In this document: positions 1 through 4,481 of the stretch, one piece after another
How positions within the stretch are numbered: the first letter of the stretch is position 1
Layout of the letters: every line of letters starts with the position of its first letter
DNA from: Bdellovibrio bacteriovorus
Lineage (GTDB): Bacteria; Bdellovibrionota; Bdellovibrionia; Bdellovibrionales; Bdellovibrionaceae
Length of the DNA: 64,000 bases
Assembly (NCBI RefSeq): GCF_001592755.1
Contig: NZ_LUKF01000014.1
Coordinates: 62,841 to 126,840, forward strand
Reading direction: 5' to 3'
Program-made: the position numbers and the translations under genes
Notes under the pieces: generated by a model
What the model saw: the letters and a program-made list of their open reading frames with translations, nothing else
What the model was told of the DNA's origin: nothing
The model's database searches: none

Positions 1-1
1 T

Positions 2-772
2 CTTGAGATTCAAGAAAGAAACAACACCATTCATCTGTCATTTAAAGATGATGGTAAGGGTTTAGATAAAGAACGCATTCTTCAACGAGCTTTGAAGAAT
101 GCTCTGGTTTCCGAGTCTGAAGTTTCGCAGCTTTCAGATGAGCAGATTTATAAGTTTATCTTTCACGCTGGATTTTCTACGAAGGACAAGGTGACGACCA
201 TTTCGGGTCGTGGTGTCGGTATGGACATCGTGTTTGCCATCGTCGAAAAATACCAAGGTAAGATCCACATTGAGAATACCCCAGGGCAAGGCGCTTCTTT
301 CCACCTTGAAATTCCCGTGCCTCAACACATTATGGTGGAAAGTGCTTTACTGTGTTCGTGGAATGATTTCCGTTTAGCCGTTCCATTGACGTCGGTCGCA
401 CACATCAGTTCTTGCCATGAGCTGCAAATGACGACTGTAAATCGTCTGCGTTTCTGTCAGTTCAGTGGATTGACAGTGCCGTTACTAAATTATCACGAGA
501 TCTTAAATCACCAAGTAGCGGCGTCGGAAGATCTGGTTCGCGGTTCTTCGGCTGTCTTTATTAAAGTCAAAGAAGGCGTATTCGCCCTTCTGGTGGATCG
601 CATCGAAGCGCAAACAGATCTCGTCGTTAAGGGCTTTGGTAATATCGTCAAAGAACAAAAAGGCTTCAAAGGCGTTTCTATTTTAGCGGATGAAAAAGTC
701 ACTTACATTGTTGATCCCGAAAAAATGATTCATTTCTTGTTTCAGCTAGATAGCATGCAGGAGGCCGCATGA
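2..772 (+). CDS. cheA: Chemotaxis histidine kinase CheA, C-terminal part (5' end outside window)
   Basis: The reading frame is open from the first codon of the window, so the gene starts upstream. What remains is the end of the ATP-binding domain (DDGKGLDKERI, then the GRGVGMDIV G-box) followed by a CheW-like regulatory domain of about 130 residues ending at residue position 772 in the DNA. CheA autophosphorylates in response to receptor arrays and passes phosphate to CheY and CheB; the CheW-like domain docks it to receptors and CheW. The stop codon overlaps the next start in an ATGA, so the two are translationally coupled. The phosphotransfer and dimerisation domains are not visible here. 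Family assignment is firm. Confidence 0.93.
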   Translation, partial: LEIQERNNTIHLSFKDDGKGLDKERILQRALKNALVSESEVSQLSDEQIYKFIFHAGFSTKDKVTTISGRGVGMDIVFAIVEKYQGKIHIENTPGQGASFHLEIPVPQHIMVESALLCSWNDFRLAVPLTSVAHISSCHELQMTTVNRLRFCQFSGLTVPLLNYHEILNHQVAASEDLVRGSSAVFIKVKEGVFALLVDRIEAQTDLVVKGFGNIVKEQKGFKGVSILADEKVTYIVDPEKMIHFLFQLDSMQEAA

Positions 773-1533
773 GTGACTTCTTTAGTGACGACTTTACGGC
801 CGAGCTGAAAGCCTATTTCCTGGATAGCGTCTGCAAAGAGGCCGACAAATTTATTGATTTGACTGACGAGTCGACATTACGTCGTATTCGTAACGAGGTT
901 GCCGAGCAAACTCGTGCCTGGGCGGTCGACGCTAAAACAAACGAGTTTTTGCATTTTTCCCAATGGCTGGAACTGTTTGAAGAACGCACACAAAGTTTCA
1001 AAGAGCCCAGAGAACTGATCAAATCGCTTAAAACTCTGAAAGCCTACGCCGAAGCGTTGATTCAGGAAAAAACAGATACAGCGGATCATCCGGTGCGCTT
1101 TGCTCTTTCGGCAGAACTTAGACAAGATGTTCAGCTTTTGCATTGTCGTTGGGGGAGCCAGGATTTCGCTATTCCGTTATTAAATGTCGTCGAAATCAGC
1201 AGTCAAATTCCCCTATACCCATTGCCGGATAAAAAAGAAGGCCTTATGGGCGTGATTCCTTTCCGTGGTGAGGCTGTTCCCGTGATTAGTTTTCATGACC
1301 ACGGCTTTAACCAATCCGAAATTAAAAACACTTTTTACGTTATCTGCGAACATCAAGGCGTCCGCTTTTCTTTGCAGGTGACTGAAACCGATGACTTGAT
1401 GAGCTTAAAAGAATCTGAACTGTTGAATGTCGAAAGCCATTCCACCGTTATTCAGACGGCCTTTGTGTCGCAATTTTTTATTAAAGGTAACAAGAGCATC
1501 ATGATTCTAGATCTTGAAAAACTGGTGGCATGA
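769..1533 (+). CDS. CheW-domain protein with long N-terminal helical extension
   Basis: This 254-residue protein is much longer than ordinary CheW (about 150-170). Residues from about 120 to the end look like a CheW beta-barrel domain (LLHCRWGSQDFAIPLLNVVEI, GVIPFRGEAVPVISF). The first 110 residues are charged and mostly helical and match nothing I recognise. It overlaps both neighbours by 4 bases and so sits in one tight operon between cheA and a cheD-cheB fusion. A scaffolding role in linking CheA to receptors is inferred from the domain and the position. The extension might add a docking or dimerisation surface. Confidence 0.8.
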   Translation: MSDFFSDDFTAELKAYFLDSVCKEADKFIDLTDESTLRRIRNEVAEQTRAWAVDAKTNEFLHFSQWLELFEERTQSFKEPRELIKSLKTLKAYAEALIQEKTDTADHPVRFALSAELRQDVQLLHCRWGSQDFAIPLLNVVEISSQIPLYPLPDKKEGLMGVIPFRGEAVPVISFHDHGFNQSEIKNTFYVICEHQGVRFSLQVTETDDLMSLKESELLNVESHSTVIQTAFVSQFFIKGNKSIMILDLEKLVA

Positions 1534-3092
1534 TGAATACCCATTATTTGTTTCCTGGAAAATTAGCGGCCTTTAAAGAAGAAACTGTGATCTCGACTTT
1601 GTTAGGTTCTTGTGTGGCCGTCGCTATTTTTGATCCGACTACGAAAATCGGTGGTCTGAATCACTATCTTTTACCTGAAGGCCTGCCTGAAGAAAGTCAA
1701 AATAGCCGCTATGGCAGCTACGCCATTCCTCAGCTGATTGAAGAGTGTGTTCGCCTAGGCGCCAACCGCAGTAAAATGCAGGCAAAAATTTATGGTGGCG
1801 GTAACGTTATCAGCGTTTCACAACTAGGTGACGGGATCGGGAAACGCAATATTGAAATTGCCGAACAGCTGATGCGTGAATTCAATATCCCTATCATCGA
1901 ACGCAATGTCGCCGGCGAAAATGCTCGCACCATTAAGATGAATACTTTCACTTTTGAAGTGATTCATAATTCACCGCGGGATACGGGCTCTGTGGATAAA
2001 CCTGTGGACGTGTCGGGCTTCAGACCCTTGTCTATAGCGAAAAACGTGAAGGTGCTTGTTGTTGATGATTCGGCAACGGTCCGTACTCTTTTCACGAATA
2101 TTTTTACAAAAAGTGGCTTGGAAGTCGTTGGTTCGGCTGCAGATCCTTATCAAGCTCGCGAAATGATCTTGAATAAAAAACCCGATGTGATCACTTTGGA
2201 TATCGAGATGCCGAAGATGTCAGGCGTGATGTTTTTAGAAAAACTTATGAAGCACCATCCAATTCCGGTGGTGATGGTGTCTTCATTGGCGAGCACGGGT
2301 GAAGCGGCACTGAAATCTTTAGAGTTGGGTGCTGTGGAGTTTGTTCACAAACCCTCGCAGTTTGATCCGGCAGTTTTAAAAGATCTTGCGGCGATGCTTG
2401 TTGATAAAGTGCGCGCCGCTGCTTCAGTGAATGTGTTGAAGAGGCTGAAGGAAGCTCCTCCGGTAGTTGAAATTAAAACCAACGCACCAGTGAAAATTGT
2501 GCGCAAAGCCGCCGAACTTAAAGTGGTGGTCTTAGGTGGCAACGCCGGTAGTGCGGATGCCGTAGAAAAGTTCGTAAAAAATCTGGCGGCAGATACGCCT
2601 CCGGTCGTAGTGGCATGCAGTACCGTAGCGAACTTTGCGACAGCGTTTATCAGTAAGTTGAAACAAGGCTCTAAAGTAACTCCCGTTCTTGCGAAGGACG
2701 GCGAGTTTTTAAGAATGGGTCATGTTTATTTTATTCCTGCAGAACATCATGGGAAAATTCAAACAGGCGGTACGGGGCCAGTCTTGCATATCGCCAAGGG
2801 GACTCCTGTATCGTCACAACTCCCGTCGGCCAACGTTCTTTTCCAGTCTGCCGCGCAGTCTTATGCGAAGGGCGTTTATGCGGTGTTATTAGGAGGCTTC
2901 GGCGCCGACGGTGTCGATGGTCTTATCGACGTGCAGAAAAAAGGGGGCGCCACTGTGGTGCAGCACCCGGAAGAAGCACAATTCCCTTACGGCCCACAGA
3001 AAGCCATTGAACTAGGGGTGGCGGATGAGATACTTAAGGCAGATATGTTAGCGCATCATCTGATGCAGTATCGAAACCAAAACTTATACTAG
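1530..3092 (+). CDS. CheD-receiver-CheB fusion with a degenerate methylesterase site
   Basis: Three modules are joined in 520 residues. Residues 1-150 are a CheD receptor deamidase with the catalytic Cys28 (LLGSCVAV) and His45 (GGLNH). Residues 172-295 are a receiver with acidic pair D179/D180, phospho-acceptor D224 and K274. Residues 330-520 align along their length with the CheB esterase domain, but the nucleophile motif GASTGG reads GGNAGS (Asn338 in place of Ser) and the catalytic His of QHMP reads CSTV (Ser364). The third triad residue, Asp460 (GFGADG), is kept. CheD should be active, while demethylation is probably lost or changed. The frame starts with two ATG codons; the first overlaps the upstream stop. 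Confidence 0.88.
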   Translation: MMNTHYLFPGKLAAFKEETVISTLLGSCVAVAIFDPTTKIGGLNHYLLPEGLPEESQNSRYGSYAIPQLIEECVRLGANRSKMQAKIYGGGNVISVSQLGDGIGKRNIEIAEQLMREFNIPIIERNVAGENARTIKMNTFTFEVIHNSPRDTGSVDKPVDVSGFRPLSIAKNVKVLVVDDSATVRTLFTNIFTKSGLEVVGSAADPYQAREMILNKKPDVITLDIEMPKMSGVMFLEKLMKHHPIPVVMVSSLASTGEAALKSLELGAVEFVHKPSQFDPAVLKDLAAMLVDKVRAAASVNVLKRLKEAPPVVEIKTNAPVKIVRKAAELKVVVLGGNAGSADAVEKFVKNLAADTPPVVVACSTVANFATAFISKLKQGSKVTPVLAKDGEFLRMGHVYFIPAEHHGKIQTGGTGPVLHIAKGTPVSSQLPSANVLFQSAAQSYAKGVYAVLLGGFGADGVDGLIDVQKKGGATVVQHPEEAQFPYGPQKAIELGVADEILKADMLAHHLMQYRNQNLY

Positions 3093-3101
3093 GATCTTTC
3101 T

Positions 3102-4481
3102 TTGGAACTTTCGAACTTTATCGGCGGGGAGTTTGTCCCCGCTGAAAGTAAAAACACGTTTGCTAAATTCAATCCTTTCACCGGCGAAGTTCTGGCGCAA
3201 GTTTCATCATCCGACGCGATGGATGTTATTAAAGCCCTGCAACCGGCAAAAAAAGCAGCGACAAGTTTTAAAGACAGTTCCCTAGAGCAAAGGGCCACCT
3301 ATCTAAAATCTCTTGCACAAATCCTTCAAGAAAACGCCGATCAAATTGCTTATGACGAGGCTCTTCATCAAGGTTTGCCTCACGCCTTCGTTCTAAAAAA
3401 CAATGTCGAAGTTTCTATTCGTATTTTGCAAGAAACTGCGGAAGCTCTTTTGCAATTGCAAGATCCAAAAATGCTTTATCAACCTTCAGGCATTGTCGGT
3501 ATCATCACGGCCTGGAGCTGCTCTTTACGTCTTGTCGTAGAAAGACTGGCGCCAGCACTGGCCGCGGGAAATGTTGTTCTGGTGAAAGTTTCCGAGCAAT
3601 CTCCGATCACGGCGAAAATTCTGGGAGAGGCTTTGCAAAAAGCTCAGATCCCGGCGGGCATCGTTAATATTCTTCAAGGAAATGCCGAGGTCGCGCAAAT
3701 CATCGCGGGTCATCCGAGTATTCGTGCGGTGACTGCGGCTGGAAAAACTTCCACGCTTGAAGCCATCGCAAAAACTGCTTTACCGCAATTTAAAAAATTG
3801 CAGTTAAGTGGGGGAGCAAAAAATCCATCAGCCGTTTTAGCGGACACAGATTATAAGAATCTGCTTCCCGAAATTCTTCGCCCTTTTTTAATCGGCCAAG
3901 GACAGATGTGTTGGAATATTTCCCGTTTGTTCGTTCTGGAATCTTTTGCTCCTGATTTCTTAGAGGCCGTGAAAAACTATTTTGCGGATCTAAAGCCTCT
4001 TAAAGATCCTCGCGGAAGTGAAGTTTGGACACCTTTGATTTCACAGAGCTCAGTCTCTCACATTGATGAAAAAATTAAGTTCGGTGTTTCTGAGCACGGA
4101 AAAGTTTTTGTCGGCGGTAACGTTGAAGGTGTGGGATTCTTCTATAAGCCAACAGTGATGTTGGATCTTCCTAACTGCAGTGTCTTGCAACAAGATGAGC
4201 TGCACGGACCTCTTTTGTTAATCACAGCCGTAAAGTACCAGCATGAAATTCAAAAGTGGGCGAACACTTCTTATGTCGCGCACTCCTCAGTGGTATGGGG
4301 GCCTTCAGAAAAAGTGATGAAGGTTGTTTCCGCGTTAGACACCGCCCATGTTTGGGTGAATTCTTGGATGAATGGTGAAACCACCACGATCTTCGGTCAC
4401 AAGCAGTCGAGCTTTGGAAATCTCGACATGTCTTGGAACGGCTCTTTTTATTCGGATGTAAAAAAATTGGCGGGGACCTAA
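3102..4481 (+). CDS. Aldehyde dehydrogenase superfamily protein, atypical active site
   Basis: The 459-residue protein has the full aldehyde dehydrogenase fold by sequence: an NAD-binding region with Lys162 (VLVKVSEQ), APALAAGN at 150-157, the nucleophile Cys270 in GQGQMC, and a C-terminal WVNSWMN segment. Two usually invariant residues are changed. The oxyanion Asn of PWNFP reads AWSCS (Ser139), and the general-base Glu of LELGGK reads LQLSGG (Gln234). It may therefore work as an acyl-transfer enzyme, act poorly, or bind cofactor without oxidising aldehydes. The start is a TTG ten bases after the preceding chemotaxis gene, with weak ribosome-binding sequence. The substrate cannot be told. 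Confidence 0.8.
   Translation: MELSNFIGGEFVPAESKNTFAKFNPFTGEVLAQVSSSDAMDVIKALQPAKKAATSFKDSSLEQRATYLKSLAQILQENADQIAYDEALHQGLPHAFVLKNNVEVSIRILQETAEALLQLQDPKMLYQPSGIVGIITAWSCSLRLVVERLAPALAAGNVVLVKVSEQSPITAKILGEALQKAQIPAGIVNILQGNAEVAQIIAGHPSIRAVTAAGKTSTLEAIAKTALPQFKKLQLSGGAKNPSAVLADTDYKNLLPEILRPFLIGQGQMCWNISRLFVLESFAPDFLEAVKNYFADLKPLKDPRGSEVWTPLISQSSVSHIDEKIKFGVSEHGKVFVGGNVEGVGFFYKPTVMLDLPNCSVLQQDELHGPLLLITAVKYQHEIQKWANTSYVAHSSVVWGPSEKVMKVVSALDTAHVWVNSWMNGETTTIFGHKQSSFGNLDMSWNGSFYSDVKKLAGT

Follow-up and report, generated by a model that had tools for sequence, protein, structure and literature searches.

A CheD-receiver-CheB fusion of Bdellovibrio bacteriovorus with a CheB domain lacking the catalytic Ser and His: a candidate control unit of the CheD deamidase

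What role is left for a CheB domain that has lost two residues of its catalytic triad and stands behind a CheD deamidase in the same protein? This question is raised by a gene of Bdellovibrio bacteriovorus, located in a 64,000-nucleotide stretch of contig NZ_LUKF01000014.1 (the window), in which CheD, a receiver domain (REC) and an altered CheB domain (designated CheB*) are joined. The initial annotation of this DNA had read the three domains as parts of a single 520-residue protein, and the ORF and the Pfam matches (CheD at residues 54-145, Response_reg at 175-278, CheB_methylest at 333-511) agree on this point. It had also suggested that the REC-CheB* part is a regulator of CheD rather than an esterase, an idea to which the comparative evidence presented here lends support.

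The fusion gene and its domains

The genes of the window cluster are arranged in the order cheA2, cheW2, fusion gene, aldehyde dehydrogenase gene, and the che genes overlap pairwise by 4 bases (Table 1). Only the 3' part of cheA2 lies in the window; the complete gene (581 aa) has its start at C14:61867, further upstream. Genes for a receptor, CheY or CheR are absent from the cheA2-cheW2-fusion cluster. The aldehyde dehydrogenase gene was used as a synteny marker and is not claimed as a part of the system. CheW2 carries an N-terminal extension of ~115 residues (longer in L006), for which no confident Pfam match was obtained, a weak GSIII_N match being below the cut-off.

Table 1. Features of the chemotaxis cluster (window coordinates)
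Feature	Position	Strand	Basis and remarks
cheA2, 3' part (HPt, HATPase and CheW domains)	1..772	+	Pfam
cheW2, 254 aa, CheW domain at 122-253	769..1533	+	Pfam; 4-base overlap with cheA2
cheD-REC-cheB* fusion gene, 520 aa	1530..3092	+	ORF list, Pfam; 4-base overlap with cheW2
CheD domain, residues 1-150	1530..1979	+	Pfam; 2f9z_C structure match
Receiver domain (REC), residues 172-290	2043..2399	+	Pfam; structure alignment
CheB* pseudo-esterase domain, residues 329-515	2514..3074	+	Pfam; model aligned to 1chd
Asn338 codon, nucleophile position (Ser164)	2541..2543	+	Alignment to CheB
Ser364 codon, catalytic His position (His190)	2619..2621	+	Alignment to CheB
Asp460 codon (Asp286), sole triad residue left	2907..2909	+	Alignment to CheB
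Aldehyde dehydrogenase gene	3102..4481	+	9 bases downstream of fusion

REC and CheB* together have the fold and the domain order of CheB (PF01339; 1a2o, 6ymz), with Z scores of 40-41 over about 330 residues, and Pfam together with the alignments to 1a2o, 6ymz and 1chd places REC before the CheB C-terminal fold. Asp286 and the REC acid pocket of CheB are also kept, whereas Ser164 and His190 are replaced by Asn and Ser, and CheD is added in front. The CheB_methylest score is far above the Pfam cut-off (122.6 versus 24 bits), while that against the NCBIfam CheB model NF001965 is below the cut-off of that model (258.9 versus 293 bits). In the phmmer alignments, which are collinear with 6ymz and with 1a2o (Salmonella CheB, the reference for the 164/190/286 numbering), GASTGG is changed to GGNAGS, TQHM to ACST and GMGNDG to GFGADG.

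An AlphaFold model of the fusion has a mean pLDDT of 85.9, with unreliable placement of the domains relative to each other (pTM 0.63; linkers with pLDDT < 50). Residues 328..520 of this model superimpose on residues 154..348 of 1chd, the isolated CheB domain, over 193 residues at 1.6 A. The structural offset at the start is 174, which puts Asn338 on Ser164, and the offset of the sequence alignment is identical up to the pairs Ser364/His190 and Asp460/Asp286; therefore the Ser and His have not been displaced to other positions. Both alignments thus uphold the initial assignment of Asn338, Ser364 and Asp460 to the three triad positions of an otherwise collinear domain. A sequencing or assembly artefact is excluded by the identical state in 28 species-level genomes. 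Judged by these residues, CheB* cannot be a canonical Ser-His-Asp esterase.

The N-terminal domain has the fold of CheD (PF03975; 147 residues aligned to 2f9z chain C at 1.9 A, Z 21.9), a Pfam score of 81 bits against a cut-off of 25, and intact Thr23, Cys28 (1611-1613) and His45 (1662-1664); these three residues are present in all 27 related proteins of class B (see below) whose rows cover the site, the remaining row being incomplete. By fold and catalytic residues it fits a CheD deamidase, and the corresponding activity is predicted. CheD proteins are normally free-standing, and those of B. subtilis and T. maritima are controlled by CheC; in the fusion, CheD is instead covalently joined to REC-CheB* and no CheC is evident. 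The receiver domain has the residues expected of a CheB-type response regulator, i.e. an acidic pair (Asp179, Asp180), a predicted phospho-acceptor (Asp224; 2199-2201), Ser251 and Lys274, the first four being invariant in 27/27 class-B proteins and Lys274, as aligned, in 28/28. Foldseek matches beyond CheB, CheD and REC, such as PleD, reflected shared receiver domains.

Two classes of fusion in the Bdellovibrionota

CheD is present in 94 of 369 Bdellovibrionota genomes, many of the 94 being long fusions. Class B, to which the protein of the window belongs, comprises 28 proteins from the genus Bdellovibrio, three further genera of its family (g3, g9, g20) and families f7, f9 and f13. Alignment of these relatives revealed that the altered active site is no oddity of one genome: the nucleophile position is occupied by Asn in 28/28 species and the His position by Ser (25), Ala (2) or Thr (1), while the triad Asp is kept in all 28. 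With the catalytic Ser and His gone and their loss fixed across the clade, the early reading of the domain as something other than a canonical esterase is supported. No replacement nucleophile is apparent, since Cys363 and Ser341 are each found in 22/28 proteins and neither is conserved in class B; an invariant His or Cys is lacking in CheB* across the 28 sequences. Other changes are specific to class B, i.e. Phe at the position of Met283 (27/28), Gln at position 430 (28/28) and Pro at position 480 (28/28).

The CheB* domains form a single clade with 100% support, apart from class A (see below) and from intact CheBs, and have 18 residues invariant over order- and phylum-level distances. Mean identity within the genus amounts to 90% for REC, 81% for CheB*, 77% for CheD and 60-69% for the linkers. 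The dN/dS of CheB* is about 0.05, compared with about 0.02 for the canonical CheB domain (Bdellovibrio CheBs chosen by their intact Ser and His motif), but dS was saturated, and for this reason we set the per-domain ratios aside and relied on amino-acid identities. The dead domain is at least as conserved as the adjoining active-type CheD, which argues that it is not decaying. The esterase residues were lost long ago, and their absence is fixed and strongly constrained.

Class-B loci vary in other respects. The CheA of three more distant clusters (L119, L123, L159) has an extra receiver domain and a length of about 710 aa. A 393-aa class-B protein of G217 (L131:6213-7391) consists of CheD and CheB* without REC and adjoins an intact REC-CheB; phosphorylation control is therefore not needed in every class-B member.

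Class A (26 proteins examined) has the same domain order, CheD-(REC)-CheB, and occurs in the same phylum, yet the Ser, His and Asp are intact in 26/26, and its CheD and CheB domains form clades separate from those of class B. Fusion by itself thus did not cause the catalytic loss and is ruled out as its explanation. Descent of class B from class A was rejected on the CheD and CheB trees (built by a quick method and containing long branches), both of which separate the two classes; in the CheD tree, CheDs of other phyla fall on the class-B side. Read most simply, these trees imply that fusion took place twice and that catalysis was lost in only one of the two cases; given the quick trees and long branches, the clade is more secure than this count. 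The one-off fusion implied at the outset would accordingly be one of two in the phylum, the other of which keeps its triad. Fusion and catalytic loss are thus separate events. Class-A genes also differ in context, being usually located right after cheR with no neighbouring second cheB. Two class-A members (L151 of G159, Cys to Ser; L148 of G129, His to Gln) have an intact CheB and a damaged CheD, mirroring class B.

Outside the Bdellovibrionota, neither a fusion nor the Asn form was found among the best 80 matches. In Pseudomonadota, Campylobacterota and Bacteroidota, cheD and cheB are adjacent in the same order as in the fusion, but encode separate proteins with intact triads, unlike class B; such adjacent free-standing genes are the likely starting point for fusion. 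Two further arrangements were encountered within the phylum: a second family of CheD (L176, L177, L234, L235, L237, L239-L241, L243, L247), whose cheR-cheD cluster includes a three-CheW-domain protein, and a 406-aa frame of G047 (L140:6086-7303) that matches CheD and CheR and suggests a CheD-CheR fusion.

The fusion is built from known Che parts and is not a new kind of system. A literature search for CheD-CheB fusions or pseudo-CheB proteins, covering only a minority of the subscription journals, returned nothing on point, and the class-B fusion is apparently undescribed in the literature searched.

Intact CheB, candidate receptors and joint absence of CheA2 and REC-CheB*

The genome of the window encodes one CheD (the fusion), two CheBs, two CheRs, 18 receptors and two CheX proteins. 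A second, intact CheB, whose existence had been posed as a question by the initial annotation, adjoins cheA and cheR on contig C1. A further CheB-family match was detected in 27/29 class-B genomes, the two exceptions (G141, G148) being drafts, and the triad was intact in every extra CheB inspected (seven read directly). Intact cheB is the next gene after the fusion in six clusters outside genera g1/g9 (L123, L131, L136, L152, L159, L167), and Bdellovibrio's own intact CheB groups with these tandem copies (94%). The window's genome gives two weak CheC-motif matches, both located within its two CheX genes; there is thus no evident CheC, the classical regulator of CheD, apart from CheX. A Gln-containing methylation-type site is present in 15/18 receptors, which provides CheD with plausible candidate substrates. 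Six of the 18 (L212, L213, L215, L216, L221, L222) share a C-terminal KVGxxxGF-like tail, mostly VG[ST]TDGF, which follows a low-complexity linker and may be an enzyme tether. These six tails do not fit the xZxxZ pentapeptide rule (PMC7698151).

A free-standing CheD occupies the corresponding locus in two Bdellovibrio genomes (G134, G140) and in four of genus g19 (G189-G192). The locus was recognized by adjoining marker genes (HIT, diheme or dehydrogenase; HIT only in G191) that border the cluster in the genome of the window, and neither cheA, cheW nor REC-CheB* is found there. In whole-genome searches, a CheA2 ortholog was absent from nine genomes (G134, G140, G150 and six of g19), whose best matches had ~30% identity with E no better than 4e-54; the CheA2 proteins of fusion-bearing genomes have 49-100% identity, with E of 2e-166 or better. 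REC-CheB* was not found at the loci of the same nine genomes. The CheBs retrieved from G134 and G140 have Ser at the nucleophile position.

The lone CheDs of G134, G140 and g19 nest within the class-B CheD clade, and the fusion is present in class-B members at greater distance; the lone state therefore represents loss of the module. On the dehydrogenase tree this pattern takes three changes, of which two are imposed by well supported branches; the number of independent losses is accordingly two or three. Since CheD is kept in these genomes, the module is not essential for it. The joint absence, with CheD mostly retained, is the pattern that would be expected if REC-CheB* were a CheA-driven control module. 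Single deletions taking neighbouring genes together could explain each joint absence, yet each loss spared CheD while removing the part fused to it.

A candidate control unit of CheD and its alternatives

Given the loss of the catalytic Ser and His across the whole clade, the most probable role of the dead domain is control of CheD in place of receptor demethylation. CheA2, coupled by CheW2, would be the probable donor of the phosphoryl group to Asp224. It is well established that phosphorylation of CheB opens the interface between REC and the C-terminal domain, and by analogy the REC/CheB* interface may open in the same way. The freed CheB* could then dock on chemoreceptors, or cease to mask CheD, without hydrolysis, whereupon CheD would modify receptor glutamines, its activity presumably rising rather than falling on phosphorylation; demethylation would fall to the second, intact CheB. 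The receptor tether is reported to be bound more tightly by a phosphorylation mimic of CheB, and an S164A form was among the proteins measured (PMC8609364); the nucleophile therefore seems dispensable for this binding. An interaction between CheD and CheB has been reported in Halobacterium (PMC3579733). Contact of CheB* with CheD or receptors is putative, the domain arrangement being predicted without confidence. Taken as a whole, the model in which REC-CheB* is a phosphorylation-driven control unit of the CheD deamidase has, in our judgement, a somewhat better than even chance of being correct.

Several other explanations have to be considered. REC-CheB* might be a phosphate sink or a binding partner of CheA2, draining phosphoryl groups or occupying the array, with the fusion to CheD being incidental. 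The high conservation of REC, with its invariant residues, and the absence of REC-CheB* together with CheA2 while CheD stays would agree with this; nevertheless, REC would then suffice, whereas CheB* is itself highly conserved and has invariant residues particular to the clade, its fusion to CheD has lasted throughout the clade and the G217 protein lost precisely REC, and we consider a sink unlikely. Distinctly unlikely is a role of CheB* mainly in regulating the second, intact CheB, as its partner or as its competitor for the same receptor sites, while CheD rides along: although intact CheB directly follows the fusion in the six class-B clusters, that of Bdellovibrio proper is encoded in a different cluster that has a CheA and a CheR of its own, and CheB is not known to act as a dimer.

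The remodelled pocket might also belong to an enzyme with other chemistry (e.g. an amidase or an esterase that relies on Asp460 and a bound water), acting on receptors or another substrate. The Asp kept in 28/28 and the change of positions 283 (Met), 430 and 480 to fixed Phe, Gln and Pro, not at random, could be read in this manner, but within the domain neither His nor Cys is invariant at any site, the nucleophile position never carries Ser or Thr, the invariant Ser433 and Ser440 lie in a PSxxVLFxS segment also found in solved CheBs, and almost every genome has an intact CheB as well, which makes this very improbable. That CheB* is a decaying leftover of duplication, tolerated thanks to the intact CheB, appears scarcely credible: the catalytic loss does accompany a second, intact CheB, and the canonical domain evolves more slowly, but the retention of Asn and the 18 invariant residues over such distances, a dN/dS of only about 0.05 (saturated dS) and the full-length fold largely contradict it. 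A tentative and rather doubtful elaboration of CheD control by REC-CheB* is that the pocket, in which Asn, Gln, Phe and Pro are fixed, may be a non-cutting reader of methylated or amidated sites, which, phosphorylated by CheA2, hands the receptor to CheD. If so, receptor adaptation would be the main output of CheA2, whose operon lacks CheY, CheR and a receptor, and CheA2 would tune arrays of the main chemosensory system.

A conserved pseudo-enzyme in the core of bacterial chemotaxis is unexpected. Matches to CheB are routinely taken for methylesterases, as in a survey of the Bdellovibrionota (PMC8067016). If REC-CheB* does steer CheD, adaptation in Bdellovibrio would be wired unlike that of E. 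coli or B. subtilis, with phosphorylation acting on deamidation and a second CheA feeding into receptor modification. The species with CheD alone constitute a natural control experiment, so this idea is open to direct test in a predator amenable to genetics.
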